The notes under the pieces were generated by a model. It was not told the origin of the DNA, made no database searches, and saw nothing but the letters and a program-made list of their open reading frames with translations. Shown here piece after piece: positions 9,103 through 27,893 of a stretch of DNA of 64,000 nt. Position 1 is the stretch's first letter, and every line of letters starts with the position of its first letter. Both the position numbers and the translations under genes were made by a program. Source of the stretch: Pseudonocardia autotrophica (GTDB taxonomy: Bacteria > Actinomycetota > Actinomycetes > Mycobacteriales > Pseudonocardiaceae); the NCBI RefSeq assembly GCF_003945385.1, contig NZ_AP018920.1:3658001-3722000 (forward strand), given 5' to 3'.

Positions 9103-9491
9103 CCCCGGCCGGGCCGGCAGTGCTGGACGCCTCCGCGGTCCTGGCCTGGCTGCGCGCCGAGCCCGGCGCCGAGGTCGTCGACACGTACCTGCCCGCCGCG
9201 GTGCTCTCGGCGGTCAACCTCGCCGAGGTGCACCAGAAACTCGCCCAGCACGGCGTCGACGCCGACCGGGCCATCGCCCGCCTGCGCACCGTCGGGATCC
9301 GGATCGAGCCACTCGATGTCGCCGACGCGACCGCCGCGGCGAAGCTGTGGCCCACCACCCGGACGGCGGGGCTGTCCCTCGGCGACCGGTGCTGTCTCGC
9401 ACTGGCCGCTCGCCTCGCAGGTCCTGCGATCACCGCCGACCAGGCGTGGACAGGGCTCGATCTCGACGTCACTGTCGTAGCGATCCGCTAG
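9099..9491 (+). CDS. vapC: PIN-domain ribonuclease toxin (VapC family)
   Basis: 130 residues, the usual VapC length. The acidic metal-binding set is complete: Asp10 in VLDASAVLAWL, Glu43 in NLAEVHQKL, Asp96 in LSLGDRCCLALA and Asp114 in TADQAW. Such toxins cut specific RNAs, often tRNA or the sarcin-ricin loop, when the antitoxin is degraded. The target cannot be predicted. It follows vapB with a 4-base overlap and converges on gcvP across a terminator hairpin. Confidence 0.88.
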   Translation: MTPAGPAVLDASAVLAWLRAEPGAEVVDTYLPAAVLSAVNLAEVHQKLAQHGVDADRAIARLRTVGIRIEPLDVADATAAAKLWPTTRTAGLSLGDRCCLALAARLAGPAITADQAWTGLDLDVTVVAIR

Positions 9492-9657
9492 CGAGTCCCG
9501 CGACCGCAGCCGCGCCGACCGCCGGCAGCCGGCGATGCCCGACACCTGCGTGGATACCCGCTGGATCCTCGTTCGAGACGAACAGCCACCCGGCTCCTCC
9601 GTGCCGGCCCCCGGCCCGCACCGAACACCCGGCTGGTCACCCGCTCTGCGGCTGCTG

Positions 9658-9688
9658 AGTCCCGCCCGCCGAGGGGACGGGCGGGACT
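9658..9688 (-). terminator. Hairpin terminator between vapC and gcvP
   Basis: Perfect 11-base inverted repeat AGTCCCGCCCG / CGGGCGGGACT with a 9-base loop, 8 bases past the gcvP stop and 167 bases past the vapC stop. It is placed to terminate gcvP and can act on both strands. There is no T-run on either side, as is common in high-GC actinobacteria. Confidence 0.7.
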
Positions 9689-9695
9689 TCACGGG

Positions 9696-12575
<2,880 letters not shown>

Positions 12576-25494: not shown

Positions 25495-26070
25495 ATGGAC
25501 CGCACGATCGACTGGAACACCGAGCTCGGTGCGCAGCTGACGTTCCACTGGGAGCAGCAGCTGCGGCCCCGCCTGGCGGGGCTCACCGACGACGAGTACC
25601 TCTGGGAGCCCGTGCGCGGCATGTGGAGCGTGCGCCCGCGGGGCGAGTCCGTGACCCCGCCCGGCGCGGGGTCCGGGGACCGGGTGATCGACTTCGTGTT
25701 CCCGGTGCCGGAGCCGCCGCCGGTCACGACGATCGCCTGGCGGCTGGTGCACGTGATCGTCGGCGTGCTCGGCATGCGGGTGCACTCGCACTTCGGCGGA
25801 CCACCGGTCGACTACGACTCGCACGCCTGCGCGGGGACGGCGGCGGAGGCGCTCGCCCAGCTCGACGAGGCCTACCGCCGCTGGACCGCGGGTGTCACGG
25901 CGCTCGGATCGGACGGGCTGGCCCGGCCGTGCGGGCCGGCCGAGGGCCCGTACTCCGATGCGCCGCTCGCGACGCTGGTCCTGCACATCCACCGTGAGGT
26001 CATCCATCACGGCGCCGAGATCGCCCTGTTGCGGGATCTGTATGCGGCCTCGCCGCCCGTGCGTGGTTGA
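25495..26070 (+). CDS. DinB-family (four-helix bundle) protein
   Basis: 191 residues with the DinB layout: WNTELGAQLTFHWEQQLRPRL, LTDDEYLWEPVRGMWSVRP, TIAWRLVHVIVGVLGMRVHSHFG and LHIHREVIHHGAEIALLRDL. Three candidate metal-binding His are spread over helices 2 and 4. DinB proteins include mycothiol- and bacillithiol-dependent transferases; the activity here is unknown. The stop codon lies inside the terminator hairpin that faces the MRNWNW mini-gene array. Confidence 0.78.
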   Translation: MDRTIDWNTELGAQLTFHWEQQLRPRLAGLTDDEYLWEPVRGMWSVRPRGESVTPPGAGSGDRVIDFVFPVPEPPPVTTIAWRLVHVIVGVLGMRVHSHFGGPPVDYDSHACAGTAAEALAQLDEAYRRWTAGVTALGSDGLARPCGPAEGPYSDAPLATLVLHIHREVIHHGAEIALLRDLYAASPPVRG

Positions 26071-26099
26071 CGCGGCAGGGCCGCGAGAACCACGCACGG
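26057..26099. terminator. Long bidirectional hairpin between DinB gene and mini-gene array
   Basis: Perfect 12-base outer stem CCGTGCGTGGTT (26057-26068) / AACCACGCACGG (26088-26099), a GA/AG internal mismatch, and a 6-base inner stem CGCGGC/GCCGCG with a 3-base loop. It holds the DinB stop codon and begins 7 bases after the last MRNWNW stop on the minus strand, so the array transcript should end here without entering another gene. Confidence 0.8.
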
Positions 26100-26106
26100 C
26101 GCGCAT

Positions 26107-26127
26107 TCACCAGTTCCAGTTGCGCAT
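26107..26127 (-). CDS. Mini-gene A encoding hexapeptide MRNWNW
   Basis: Seven codons including TGA: ATG CGC AAC TGG AAC TGG TGA on the minus strand. The Shine-Dalgarno sequence GAAAGGAG lies 7 bases before the ATG, a near-perfect match to the 16S 3' end. This is the last of three copies before the terminator at 26057-26099. The codons are identical to copy B, while the bases between the copies are unrelated. Function unknown. The size and Met-Arg start recall the five-codon bytA genes of biarylitide peptides, but no P450 gene is near. See copies at 26171 and 26243. Confidence 0.72.
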   Translation of the reverse strand: MRNWNW

Positions 26128-26170
26128 GGCGTACTCCTTTCCCGATCGAGTCGACGGCTTTCGGACGCGG

Positions 26171-26191
26171 TCACCAGTTCCAGTTGCGCAT
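26171..26191 (-). CDS. Mini-gene B encoding hexapeptide MRNWNW
   Basis: Identical 21-base gene to copy A. The ribosome binding site is GGAAGGGGATC (AAGGGG about 8 bases before the ATG), weaker than that of the other two copies. It is separated by 43 bases from copy A and 51 bases from copy C, with no similarity between those spacers apart from the purine-rich ribosome binding sites. Conservation restricted to the 21 coding bases argues that the peptide, not a longer DNA repeat, is what is kept. Confidence 0.7.
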   Translation of the reverse strand: MRNWNW

Positions 26192-26242
26192 TGCCCGATC
26201 CCCTTCCGGCTGTTCGCGGTGATCATCCCTTCGCGATCTGTT

Positions 26243-26263
26243 TCACCAATTCCAGTTGCGCAT
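26243..26263 (-). CDS. Mini-gene C encoding hexapeptide MRNWNW
   Basis: First copy in the transcript. It reads ATG CGC AAC TGG AAT TGG TGA: one base differs from copies A and B and the change is synonymous (AAC to AAT, Asn5). It has an ideal Shine-Dalgarno sequence GGGGAGGTGA with a 6-base spacer. A 73-codon frame overlaps it in another phase (26223-26444), but that frame has poor codon bias and was not accepted. The three copies together form a tiny polycistronic unit. Confidence 0.72.
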   Translation of the reverse strand: MRNWNW

Positions 26264-26555
26264 GTCGATTCACCTCCCCGTCGTCGGCCCCGGGGATCCC
26301 ATGCCCCTCCCCTGACTCCCCGGAATGTGTCCCGGAGTCGTCACCGTCCGCAGTGCGGACACTCGTATGGGTGAGATCCGGCAACAAGGGTAAACACGAC
26401 TTCGCCATGTCAGGTGCCGTGTTGATCTCCAGAGGCCGGTTCACCGCACCGCGCGGGCCGCAGCCGTGGCCCGGTCCCGCCCCTGCTGACCAGCGGCGGG
26501 TCCGTGCTCCCAGCCGCTATGCTCGGCGGGAGAAACGATCAAAGGTTCGGCACCC
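26264..26555. other. Upstream region of the mini-gene array and of the diguanylate cyclase gene
   Basis: No further gene is supported. It is relatively AT-rich for this genome. On the minus strand, TACCCT (26387-26392) with CTGACA (26408-26413) 15 bases upstream is the best, though short-spaced, promoter for the array; it would give a leader of about 115 bases. A palindrome GTCCGCA-G-TGCGGAC (26346-26360) and an inverted repeat GACTCC/GGAGTC (26314-26339) lie in that leader. On the plus strand TATGCT (26518-26523) is the likely -10 of the cyclase gene. Confidence 0.45.
26518..26523 (+). promoter_or_regulatory. -10 box of the diguanylate cyclase gene
   Basis: TATGCT predicts transcription from about 26530, leaving a 26-base leader that contains AAAGG 10 bases before the TTG start. 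Confidence 0.5.
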
Positions 26556-27893
26556 TTGTCTGGAGATCCCTCGGCATCCGGCGCCCGGGTACCGGGTACC
26601 GGCAACGCGGCGCGCCGCCGGCCGTTCCGGCAGCTGCCACTGCGAGTACGCCTGCTGCTGATCGCGGTCGAGGTCACCGCCGTACTGCTGGTGGCCGCAG
26701 AGCTGCTGCGGCACGGCCCGGAACTGCTCGAACCGCGGCCGTGGATCGTCAGCGGGGCGCTACTCGTCGCGGCGGCGTTGCATGCCGAGCTCTCGCTCGG
26801 GGCCGAACGGATGCGTCGCCGAATAGCCGATACCCGCTACATCGACCTGAGTTCGGTGTGGACTTTCGCGGCCGCCCTGCTGCTGCCCGCCGTGCCGGCG
26901 GTCGCCACCGTGGTGGCCGTCTACCTGCACCTGTTCCTCCGGGTGTTCCGCCCGGCCGGGACGCCACTGCACCGGCAGCTCTACTCGACCTCCACCGTCG
27001 TGCTCGCCGTGTACCTGGTCGTGATGCTGCGGGAGTACTCCGGCGTGGGCGGCGACGTCGGTTCGGTCGCCGGCGTCGTCACCCTGCTGTGCTGTCTGCT
27101 GGTCTACACGCTGACGAACACCCTGCTGGTGGTCGCCGTGATCCGGTTGTCGCAGCCGCGGTCGAGTTTCCTGGCGATCCTGGCCGGCGGCGAGATCGTG
27201 CTGGAGCTGGCGACGCTGAGCCTGGGCGCGCTGGTCGCCGTCGTGATCGTCCCGCACTACTGGCTGCTGGTCGGCCTGCTGGTGCCGTCGCTGCTGCTGC
27301 TCGAGCAGACGACCCTGCTCCGCCAGCTGGAGGACAAGGCGAACACGGACGCCAAGACCGGACTGCTCAACGCCGACGCCTGGCGGTCCCGCGCCACCCG
27401 GTTGCTCACCGCGGCCCGCCGCGACCGGGTTGCCGCCGGCGTGCTCATCCTCGATCTCGACCACTTCAAGGACGTCAACGACCGGTACGGCCACCTGGTC
27501 GGGGACGCCGTGCTGGCCTCGATGGCCGACGTGCTGACCGGCGAGGTCCGTGGCACCGACGTGGTCGGCCGGTTCGGTGGTGAGGAGTTCGTCGTCGCGA
27601 TGGGGACGATGAAGCAGGATCCGGCGGCCGGGGCGACGGCGGTGCGCGAGACGTGTGAGCGGATCCGGCGGCGGGTCGAGTCGATGAGCGTGGAGGTGCC
27701 GTCGCTGCAGGGCGCCGTGCGGATCGACCGGCTCAGCGTGTCGGTGGGGGCCGCCGTGCAGCCCGGTGCGGGAACCGAGCTCGATCGTCTGCTCGCCGCC
27801 GCGGACGAGGCCCTCTACACCGCGAAGCGGGCCGGCCGGAACCAGGTCCGGGTGCGTGACCACGGCGGCGGGCAGGCCGGGCCCGCGCGCTGA
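26556..27893 (+). CDS. Membrane-bound diguanylate cyclase (GGDEF)
   Basis: 445 residues. Seven or eight membrane helices fill residues 28-252, an uncharacterised sensor region resembling MASE-type domains. The GGDEF domain (about 275-435) has the active-site GGEEF and the metal-binding DLDHFKDVNDRYGH. The product-inhibition I-site RGTD sits five residues before GGEEF. It should make cyclic di-GMP from two GTP at the membrane, with feedback inhibition. The TTG start is preceded by AAAGG. The membrane region may sense an unknown ligand. Confidence 0.9.
   Translation: MSGDPSASGARVPGTGNAARRRPFRQLPLRVRLLLIAVEVTAVLLVAAELLRHGPELLEPRPWIVSGALLVAAALHAELSLGAERMRRRIADTRYIDLSSVWTFAAALLLPAVPAVATVVAVYLHLFLRVFRPAGTPLHRQLYSTSTVVLAVYLVVMLREYSGVGGDVGSVAGVVTLLCCLLVYTLTNTLLVVAVIRLSQPRSSFLAILAGGEIVLELATLSLGALVAVVIVPHYWLLVGLLVPSLLLLEQTTLLRQLEDKANTDAKTGLLNADAWRSRATRLLTAARRDRVAAGVLILDLDHFKDVNDRYGHLVGDAVLASMADVLTGEVRGTDVVGRFGGEEFVVAMGTMKQDPAAGATAVRETCERIRRRVESMSVEVPSLQGAVRIDRLSVSVGAAVQPGAGTELDRLLAAADEALYTAKRAGRNQVRVRDHGGGQAGPAR

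Follow-up and report, generated by a model that had tools for sequence, protein, structure and literature searches.

A Mini-Gene Array Opposite a Membrane Diguanylate Cyclase Gene

We analyzed a 64,000-nucleotide stretch of the Pseudonocardia autotrophica genome (contig NZ_AP018920.1, positions 3,658,001 to 3,722,000; the whole stretch is referred to as the window), and in particular an array of very small open reading frames (ORFs) on its minus strand at 26107-26263. There, ATG-CGC-AAC-TGG-AA(C/T)-TGG-TGA occurs three times, and an earlier reading made from the letters alone (the sequence-only reading) proposed three tandem genes for the hexapeptide MRNWNW in their own terminated transcript. 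The three copies lie exactly where they were claimed to be (Table 1), and the evidence given below strongly supports them as genuine genes for one peptide. Each has a purine-rich Shine-Dalgarno sequence of its own, and the spacers between them are 51 and 43 nt long, which the sequence-only reading had also described correctly. A pattern search allowing up to 3 mismatches returned these three copies and one unrelated site; shuffled sequences gave a mean of 0.21 matches, and at least 4 matches in 0/100 shuffles. In the 7.5-Mb host genome, this array is the sole place of the ATG-started MRNWNW pattern.

The 12+6-base hairpin that had been reported 7 bases past the last stop codon is borne out, with a folding energy of -46.3 kcal/mol (z -5.1; equal stability in 0/200 shuffles). 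As for the transcript ending there, the strong hairpin stands, and termination itself is best called putative, because the hairpin has no T-run and was missing from the output of a terminator scan. The next gene downstream, which encodes a DinB_2-like protein, is on the plus strand as previously noted, and the array therefore leads no gene. A Trp attenuator had been considered unlikely, and rightly so, given that the window array ends at a convergent gene and that arrays of this kind are divergent from the cyclase gene described next; an attenuator leader peptide needs to be upstream of and co-directional with the gene it controls, and was ruled out by this orientation.

On its other side, the array is separated by 292 nt from a divergent gene encoding a membrane diguanylate cyclase, with a GGEEF active site at residues 341-345 and an RxxD inhibitory site. 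A promoter scan found no match to a sigma-70-type promoter in the intergenic region (26264..26555).

Table 1. Positions of the mini-ORF array, the divergent cyclase gene and associated features in the window.
Feature	Position	Strand	Remark
Mini-ORF copy 1, ATG CGC AAC TGG AAT TGG TGA (MRNWNW)	26243..26263	-	Nearest to shared intergenic region
Mini-ORF copy 2, MRNWNW	26171..26191	-	
Mini-ORF copy 3, MRNWNW	26107..26127	-	
Shine-Dalgarno GGGGAGG, copy 1	26273..26279	-	Read from sequence
Shine-Dalgarno GGAAGGGG, copy 2	26200..26207	-	Read from sequence
Shine-Dalgarno GAAAGGAG, copy 3	26134..26141	-	Read from sequence
12+6-bp hairpin	26057..26099	-	Probable transcript end; overlaps end of convergent DinB_2-like gene
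Divergent intergenic region, array to cyclase gene	26264..26555	.	Presumed site of both promoters
Membrane diguanylate cyclase (partner gene)	26556..27893	+	TTG start as listed, exact start uncertain; PF00990 E 6.5e-35
N-terminal membrane sensor domain, residues about 29-258	26640..27329	+	Modelled as S-component-like
Codon of Tyr184	27105..27107	+	Co-varies with peptide residue 3
GGDEF domain	27339..27845	+	

Partner Gene and Distribution of the Arrays

We called genes at 22 loci: within a 20-kb section of the window, and around 21 others in neighborhoods of about 20 kb (up to 10 kb on each side, less on the short contig L046; 14.7 kb in one). One of the 21 is from the host genome itself. The only gene family common to all 22/22 loci was that of GGDEF diguanylate cyclases with an N-terminal membrane domain, and the next most shared families were present at 9/22. 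At L043 and L048, the genes between array and cyclase encode transposases. Across the window and the 21 loci (472 kb), 19/19 tandem groups of 6-7-residue ORFs lie at most 3.3 kb from a cyclase of this family (a few groups overlap), and upstream of the cyclases all groups that passed the filter are on the divergent strand except one unrelated repeat.

The conservation in relatives for which the sequence-only reading had proposed a search was found within Pseudonocardia: MRNWxW followed by TGA, with the codon of x ending in C or T, occurs in 14/62 genomes of the genus and in 0/328 other genomes of Pseudonocardiaceae, mostly in tandem and with a residue x (N, H, T, G, D or E) particular to each array. 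Among 84,980 species representatives, two tandem MRN..W units were found in 32 stretches, all from Pseudonocardia but one from a Pseudonocardiales metagenome-assembled genome, by which a spread of this pattern beyond Pseudonocardia was rejected; a phage origin was rejected with 0 matches for the same pattern in viral_contigs.

A generic detector of tandem mini-ORFs preceded by Shine-Dalgarno sequences, run on the loci around the family cyclases, found that each array encodes its own 6-7-residue peptide, including MRNKSW, MRNRAW, MRNHNW, MRNKNW, MRNRSW, MRNRTWI, MSKDWN, MGKDWN, MAKNWGW, and others; MRNKSW occurs, for example, in Pseudonocardia dioxanivorans CB1190, and MRNRAW in P. autotrophica. 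In block-shuffled sequence (548 kb; every fourth locus, done twice), the detector returned 0 groups. Of the 62 Pseudonocardia genomes, one (G038) had no match and one (G015) was left out; in the 60 examined, at least one peptide locus is present in 57 and tandem arrays of 2-22 copies in 52 (one array was added by hand in G029, which counts even without it). The largest array, at L157, has 22 copies (16 MRNKSW and 6 MSNKSW).

A profile of the membrane domain (A2) identified the cyclase family in 61/62 genomes of the genus and, at E<=1e-30, in 254/386 Pseudonocardiaceae genomes and 26/46 genera; its presence elsewhere in the phylum was rejected, as it was found in 1/396 genomes, the host's own, with only 7 candidates scored per genome. 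The 281 domain matches represent 204 unique cyclases, or 192 after removal of 12 with a domain under 170 aa. A direct peptide gene accompanies 109 of these (66 arrays, 42 single genes, and 1 beyond insertion elements), the nearest array is more than 1.3 kb away in 31 (most of which are second cyclases of tandem pairs), and none was detected for 52. Two labels were given by hand, with L043 taken as an array beyond insertion elements and L048 exempted from the second-of-pair class. The motif for single genes admitted only N, G or D at residue 3, besides two named types, and had 0 background matches in 439 strand-kb. The same layout in other genera encodes MGNKDW, MRGKDW, MRNKDL, eleven M[A/T/R]NRDN, six MRNRES, and five M[R/C/G]SRDN. 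Around 30 MASE9 cyclase loci of other genomes we found no comparable array and none longer: one locus had two two-copy groups (MVGICSTVRW and MVFALQ), and five had one chance-like single match each.

The host's second W-type array (L048; G000:C1:1583000-1602900, array at 9489-10201) encodes MRNWHW with degenerate copies (MRNRHW, MRNWRW, and one whose start is replaced by CTG). The cyclase of this locus adjoins transposase genes and is truncated, and peptide and receptor are apparently decaying in parallel. At a conserved locus seen in L051, L053, L058, L060, and L061, two tail-to-tail cyclases each have their own divergent peptide, MRNWGW or MRNWTW for one and MRNRGW for the other, and the array of L051 adjoins a 1-deoxyxylulose-5-phosphate synthase gene. 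In the MRNKSW arrays of several species (L083, L089, L090, and L157), the array begins on its cyclase side with a heptapeptide gene (MRNKSWH) about 330 nt before the rest, and at L049 the heptapeptides MRNWVWN and MRNWIWN precede MRNWTW copies. A single-copy MRNWDW gene adjoins an L-lysine/L-ornithine monooxygenase-like gene at L050 (G005) and L056 (G029), and the same protein cluster is present at L059 and L062. Family cyclases often stand two or more in tandem behind one array (L108, L118, L119, L129, L137, and others), the second ones grouping mostly with other seconds, and one cyclase clade is without a detectable mini-ORF (L080-L082, L086-L088, L092, L098, L099, L101, L116, L120, L122, L127, L140, L142, L151-L155, L167, L168, and L171).

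Coding Evidence

We compared 395 copies from 68 non-redundant arrays with the consensus of their own array. Of the codon differences, 133 are synonymous and 35 non-synonymous, the latter count being somewhat low since copies more than 35% different from their own array were left unjoined; opportunity alone predicts a synonymous share of 16%. The copies start with GTG (197), ATG (196) or TTG (2) and end with TGA in 390/395, at a median unit spacing of 64 nt, with the Shine-Dalgarno sequence 5-10 nt upstream (5th-95th percentile). Identity between copies falls from 94.6% within the ORF to 50% at the ribosome-binding site and 43% over the 20 nt past the stop codon. All 31 peptide types share one layout, although some pairs, such as MGKDWN and MRNRAW, have no shared codon at any position, and a search of Rfam gave no match for the arrays. 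Non-synonymous drift, which the sequence-only reading had named (between orthologous copies) as refuting its view, is minor between the copies of an array; between arrays the peptide type does shift, in step with the cyclase.

The constraint is uneven along the peptide. Over the 355 copies of 56 hexapeptide arrays, residue 2 shows 25 non-synonymous against 50 synonymous differences and residues 3-6 show 7 against 75, that is, residues 3-6 are constrained and residue 2 is free. Arg and Ser, or Ala and Thr, coexist at residue 2 within one array, and removal of the initiator Met is expected to differ between such N-termini. Given this variation and the rule for Met removal, the N-terminus seems unimportant, and residues 3-6 seem to form the active part.

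The Sensor Domain and Its Co-Variation With the Peptide

The membrane domain of the window cyclase has no match in Pfam, and the best hits for 20 family members are weak matches only (MASE9 in 1 and FxsA in 2). MASE9 (PF20972) gave 0 matches for the window protein and for the host genome, and 1/13 and 1/20 alignment members at E 1.4e-4. Searching PDB sequences with A2 returned nothing at E<=1. In the fold lists for the sensor, proteins of the energy-coupling factor (ECF) transporters alone stood out (a search with the whole protein was swamped by GGDEF), and the modelled domain appears to resemble their six-helix S-components, its S-component-like part being flanked by an extra transmembrane helix and by a helix leading to GGDEF. 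From the distribution of charge, the pocket loops are predicted to face the cytosol. The GG[DE]EF active site is intact in 69/69 aligned proteins and RxxD is present in 68/69.

Peptide types follow the cyclase tree. For 102 of the 109 direct pairs (the MTNWNWQ and MSRSWDW types were excluded, as were proteins shorter than 380 aa), peptide difference correlates at 0.386 with the membrane domain versus 0.125 with GGDEF, and the partial correlations are 0.416 (0/300 permutations) and -0.209 respectively. The strongest single link is between peptide residue 3 and sensor residue 184. Across all 109 pairs, Asn3 occurs with Tyr184 in 86/86, and the 23 others have Phe (21), Gln (1) or Tyr (1, with MSRSWDW), with parsimony requiring 6 changes at the sensor residue and 7 at the peptide residue. 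The Asn3-Tyr184 association is without exception in the 102-pair set, where its phi of 1.00 ranks first among 1,062 features; simulation of 4,500 traits along the tree never gave phi 1.00 for any feature.

A fresh test used 58 more unique cyclases from other genera, for which the first 6-7-residue ORF with a Shine-Dalgarno sequence 100-300 nt away was taken, with residue 3 unrestricted. Such an ORF was found at 34/58 loci, against 25/2,086 background stretches. Asn3 occurred with Tyr in 8/8 and other residues with non-Tyr in 20/26 (p = 0.00017, a guide only as the loci share ancestry); by residue, Asp was paired with Gln in 5/5, Gly with Phe in 8/10, Thr with Phe in 2/3, and Ser with Tyr in 4/5.

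Two further sensor sites, 94 and 131, show a looser pattern: Trp131 is frequent in sensors whose peptide has Lys, Arg or His at residue 4, while in those paired with Trp4 peptides it is mostly absent and Arg94 or His94 is often present. This is possibly a swapped cation-pi pair.

Interpretation

On comparative evidence, the mini-ORFs evolve as coding sequence, lie divergent to one cyclase family, and have residues 3-6 that co-vary with its membrane domain. Based on this selection on the mini-genes, the constant divergent partner, and the co-evolution of peptide and sensor, we propose, with a probability of roughly three in four, that the array encodes in multiple copies a leaderless hexapeptide that is either the ligand dedicated to the head-to-head membrane diguanylate cyclase or a precursor of this ligand. 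Formyl-Met-Arg-Asn-Trp-Asn-Trp would come directly from the ribosome, lacking leader and signal sequence; the S-component-like pocket of the sensor would hold residues 3-6, and binding would turn the attached GGDEF domain on or off and thereby set the level of cyclic di-GMP (c-di-GMP), with the peptide dose set by copy number. No signal sequence was found in the mini-ORFs, and no transporter family is common to the 22 neighborhoods. With the pocket loops predicted from charge to be cytosolic, the peptide probably reaches its target from within the cell, whether it serves as an internal signal or, once released and taken up again, as a pheromone.

In sporulating actinomycetes, BldD is the route by which c-di-GMP controls development, and its binding box is TNAC(N)5GTNA (PMC4151990). 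We found this box in 18/107 shared intergenic regions, several of them homologous, whereas 23 control palindromes averaged 2.6 and reached 8 at most; no such box was found in the window. In some relatives, BldD boxes in the shared promoter region would close a feedback loop between c-di-GMP and BldD, and such c-di-GMP feedback is possible.

Taken further, the arrays may represent a new signaling class, in which a membrane diguanylate cyclase reads the 6-7-residue product of leaderless mini-genes in tandem as its ligand, from the cytosolic side and through a pocket built on an S-component-like fold, with dose set by copy number and with a pair-specific code at one contact, between residues 3 and 184 (Asn3-Tyr184, Gly3 or Thr3-Phe184, Asp3-Gln184, and perhaps Glu3-Arg184); we consider the odds of this fuller reading evenly balanced. 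The second cyclases of tandem pairs break the residue-3/184 rule, with Tyr in 11/11 behind non-Asn arrays and Phe in 2/20 behind Asn arrays, so that the rule is limited to the head-to-head cyclase. Enrichment in the cytosolic half of the sensor was not significant overall.

Among other explanations, we regard as improbable the opposite direction of control, in which the mini-genes answer to c-di-GMP, for instance by way of BldD, and an exporter- or immunity-like membrane domain binds the peptide so as to transport or neutralize it, with GGDEF as a reporter. It would account for the enrichment of BldD boxes in the shared promoter regions and for the likeness of the sensor to S-components of transporters, and leaderless peptides acting as pheromones would indeed need an exit route; however, S-components operate with an ECF motor (PMC5037267) and gene families other than the cyclase reach at most 9/22 loci, and the GGDEF active site, intact throughout, fits an output role. 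Still less credible is that the ORFs are minimal precursors of ribosomally synthesized and post-translationally modified peptides (RiPPs), cross-linked (e.g., at Trp-X-Trp) by an enzyme encoded elsewhere, in the way that a P450 acts on the products of the five-codon bytA genes, with the cyclase a bystander or regulator. Their size, Met-Arg start, and aromatic residues do recall biarylitide precursors, of which the gene bytA is present in up to six copies in Lysinibacillus (PMC13417212), and MRNWNW has two Trp, where that type has two aromatic residues at cross-linkable positions (MxYxH-like). Sister arrays, however, lack such a pair: many of their peptides have one aromatic residue (MRNKSW and MRNRAW) or none (MRNRDN and MRNRES), and therefore no general aromatic cross-link is possible. 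The P450-linked RiPP option of the sequence-only reading is also left unsupported by the neighborhoods, where a P450 heme or CxxxCxxC radical-SAM motif was found in 0/22 (by regular-expression matching in called genes rather than profile search) and the diguanylate cyclase in 22/22, and it does not account for the co-variation of peptide and sensor.

The sequence-only reading had also offered a ribosome-acting peptide. As a regulatory upstream ORF, the array would matter through translation itself (Trp stalling, drop-off, or titration of ribosomes or tRNA) rather than through a free peptide, for which the very short ORFs, good Shine-Dalgarno sequences, amplification by multiple copies, and frequent Trp might be cited. 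We find this highly improbable: apart from the divergent orientation and the convergent gene at the end of the window array, some arrays are devoid of Trp (MANRDN/MTNRDN, MRNRES, and MRDRGN), residue 5 of MRNKSW is encoded by Ser codons of both families, and the co-variation of the peptide with the membrane domain over GGDEF is left unexplained. That the units are non-coding DNA or RNA elements, such as operators or binding sites, with only an incidental coding look, is barely credible. Their tandem order and regular spacing beside a promoter region could suggest it; the mainly synonymous differences, the varying start codons with near-constant TGA, the positioned Shine-Dalgarno sequences, the many peptide types in one layout, and the lack of an Rfam match all argue against it, in keeping with the earlier judgment that this is not a simple DNA repeat. 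A signal peptide thus fits best among the functions that the sequence-only reading had offered, given the constant divergent membrane diguanylate cyclase.

Significance and Comparison With Known Systems

To our knowledge, what most membrane diguanylate cyclases sense is not known. Here, genes too short for annotation may encode the ligand of an entire cyclase family right beside it. If true, c-di-GMP signaling would receive a genetically encoded peptide as input, from genes among the smallest known, and genes of about 20 bp would have a use other than RiPPs. It would also show signal and membrane receptor switching partners one residue at a time, and it would suggest that similar mini-gene arrays are overlooked in other genomes. 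The input specificity would be directly testable by peptide and residue swaps. Literature searches, which covered neither subscription papers nor preprints, gave no match for MRNWNW and matched six other array peptides only to T-cell receptor work, and topic searches of titles and abstract starts found no comparable system; we know of no described system of this kind.

The biarylitide precursor genes bytA are the smallest known genes (18 bp), with a two-residue leader, some Met-Arg starts, and occasional multiple copies (PMC13417212, PMC8708641). The arrays resemble this bytA/bytO system in tiny gene size, Met-Arg start, and multiple copies, but differ in their 21-24-bp genes, up to 22 copies, lack of a P450 motif nearby, opposite-strand membrane diguanylate cyclase partner, and many peptides that cannot cross-link aromatic residues. 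With MASE-type diguanylate cyclases, the partner protein shares an N-terminal transmembrane sensor, a linking helix, and a GGDEF domain with intact A-site and I-site, but its sensor has no Pfam match and is tied to a genetically encoded peptide, unlike the MASE9 loci described above. Compared with ECF S-components (RibU, ThiT, and BioY), the sensor has the additional helices, no ECF motor family is shared by the loci, and its pocket side is predicted from charge to be cytosolic rather than outside, in contrast to the outward cavity of YkoE (PMC5037267).

The arrays also invite comparison with Gram-positive pheromone systems. In RRNPP receptors, Rgg/SHP, and arbitrium AimP/AimR, a short private ribosomal peptide and an adjacent cognate receptor diversify together, the pheromones being cut from longer secreted precursors and binding cytosolic regulators. 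The same pairing of a private short peptide with an adjacent, co-diversifying partner was found here, except for the second-of-pair cyclases. The arrays differ in that the peptide is a leaderless 6-7-residue ORF product encoded in tandem, and in that the partner is a membrane diguanylate cyclase.
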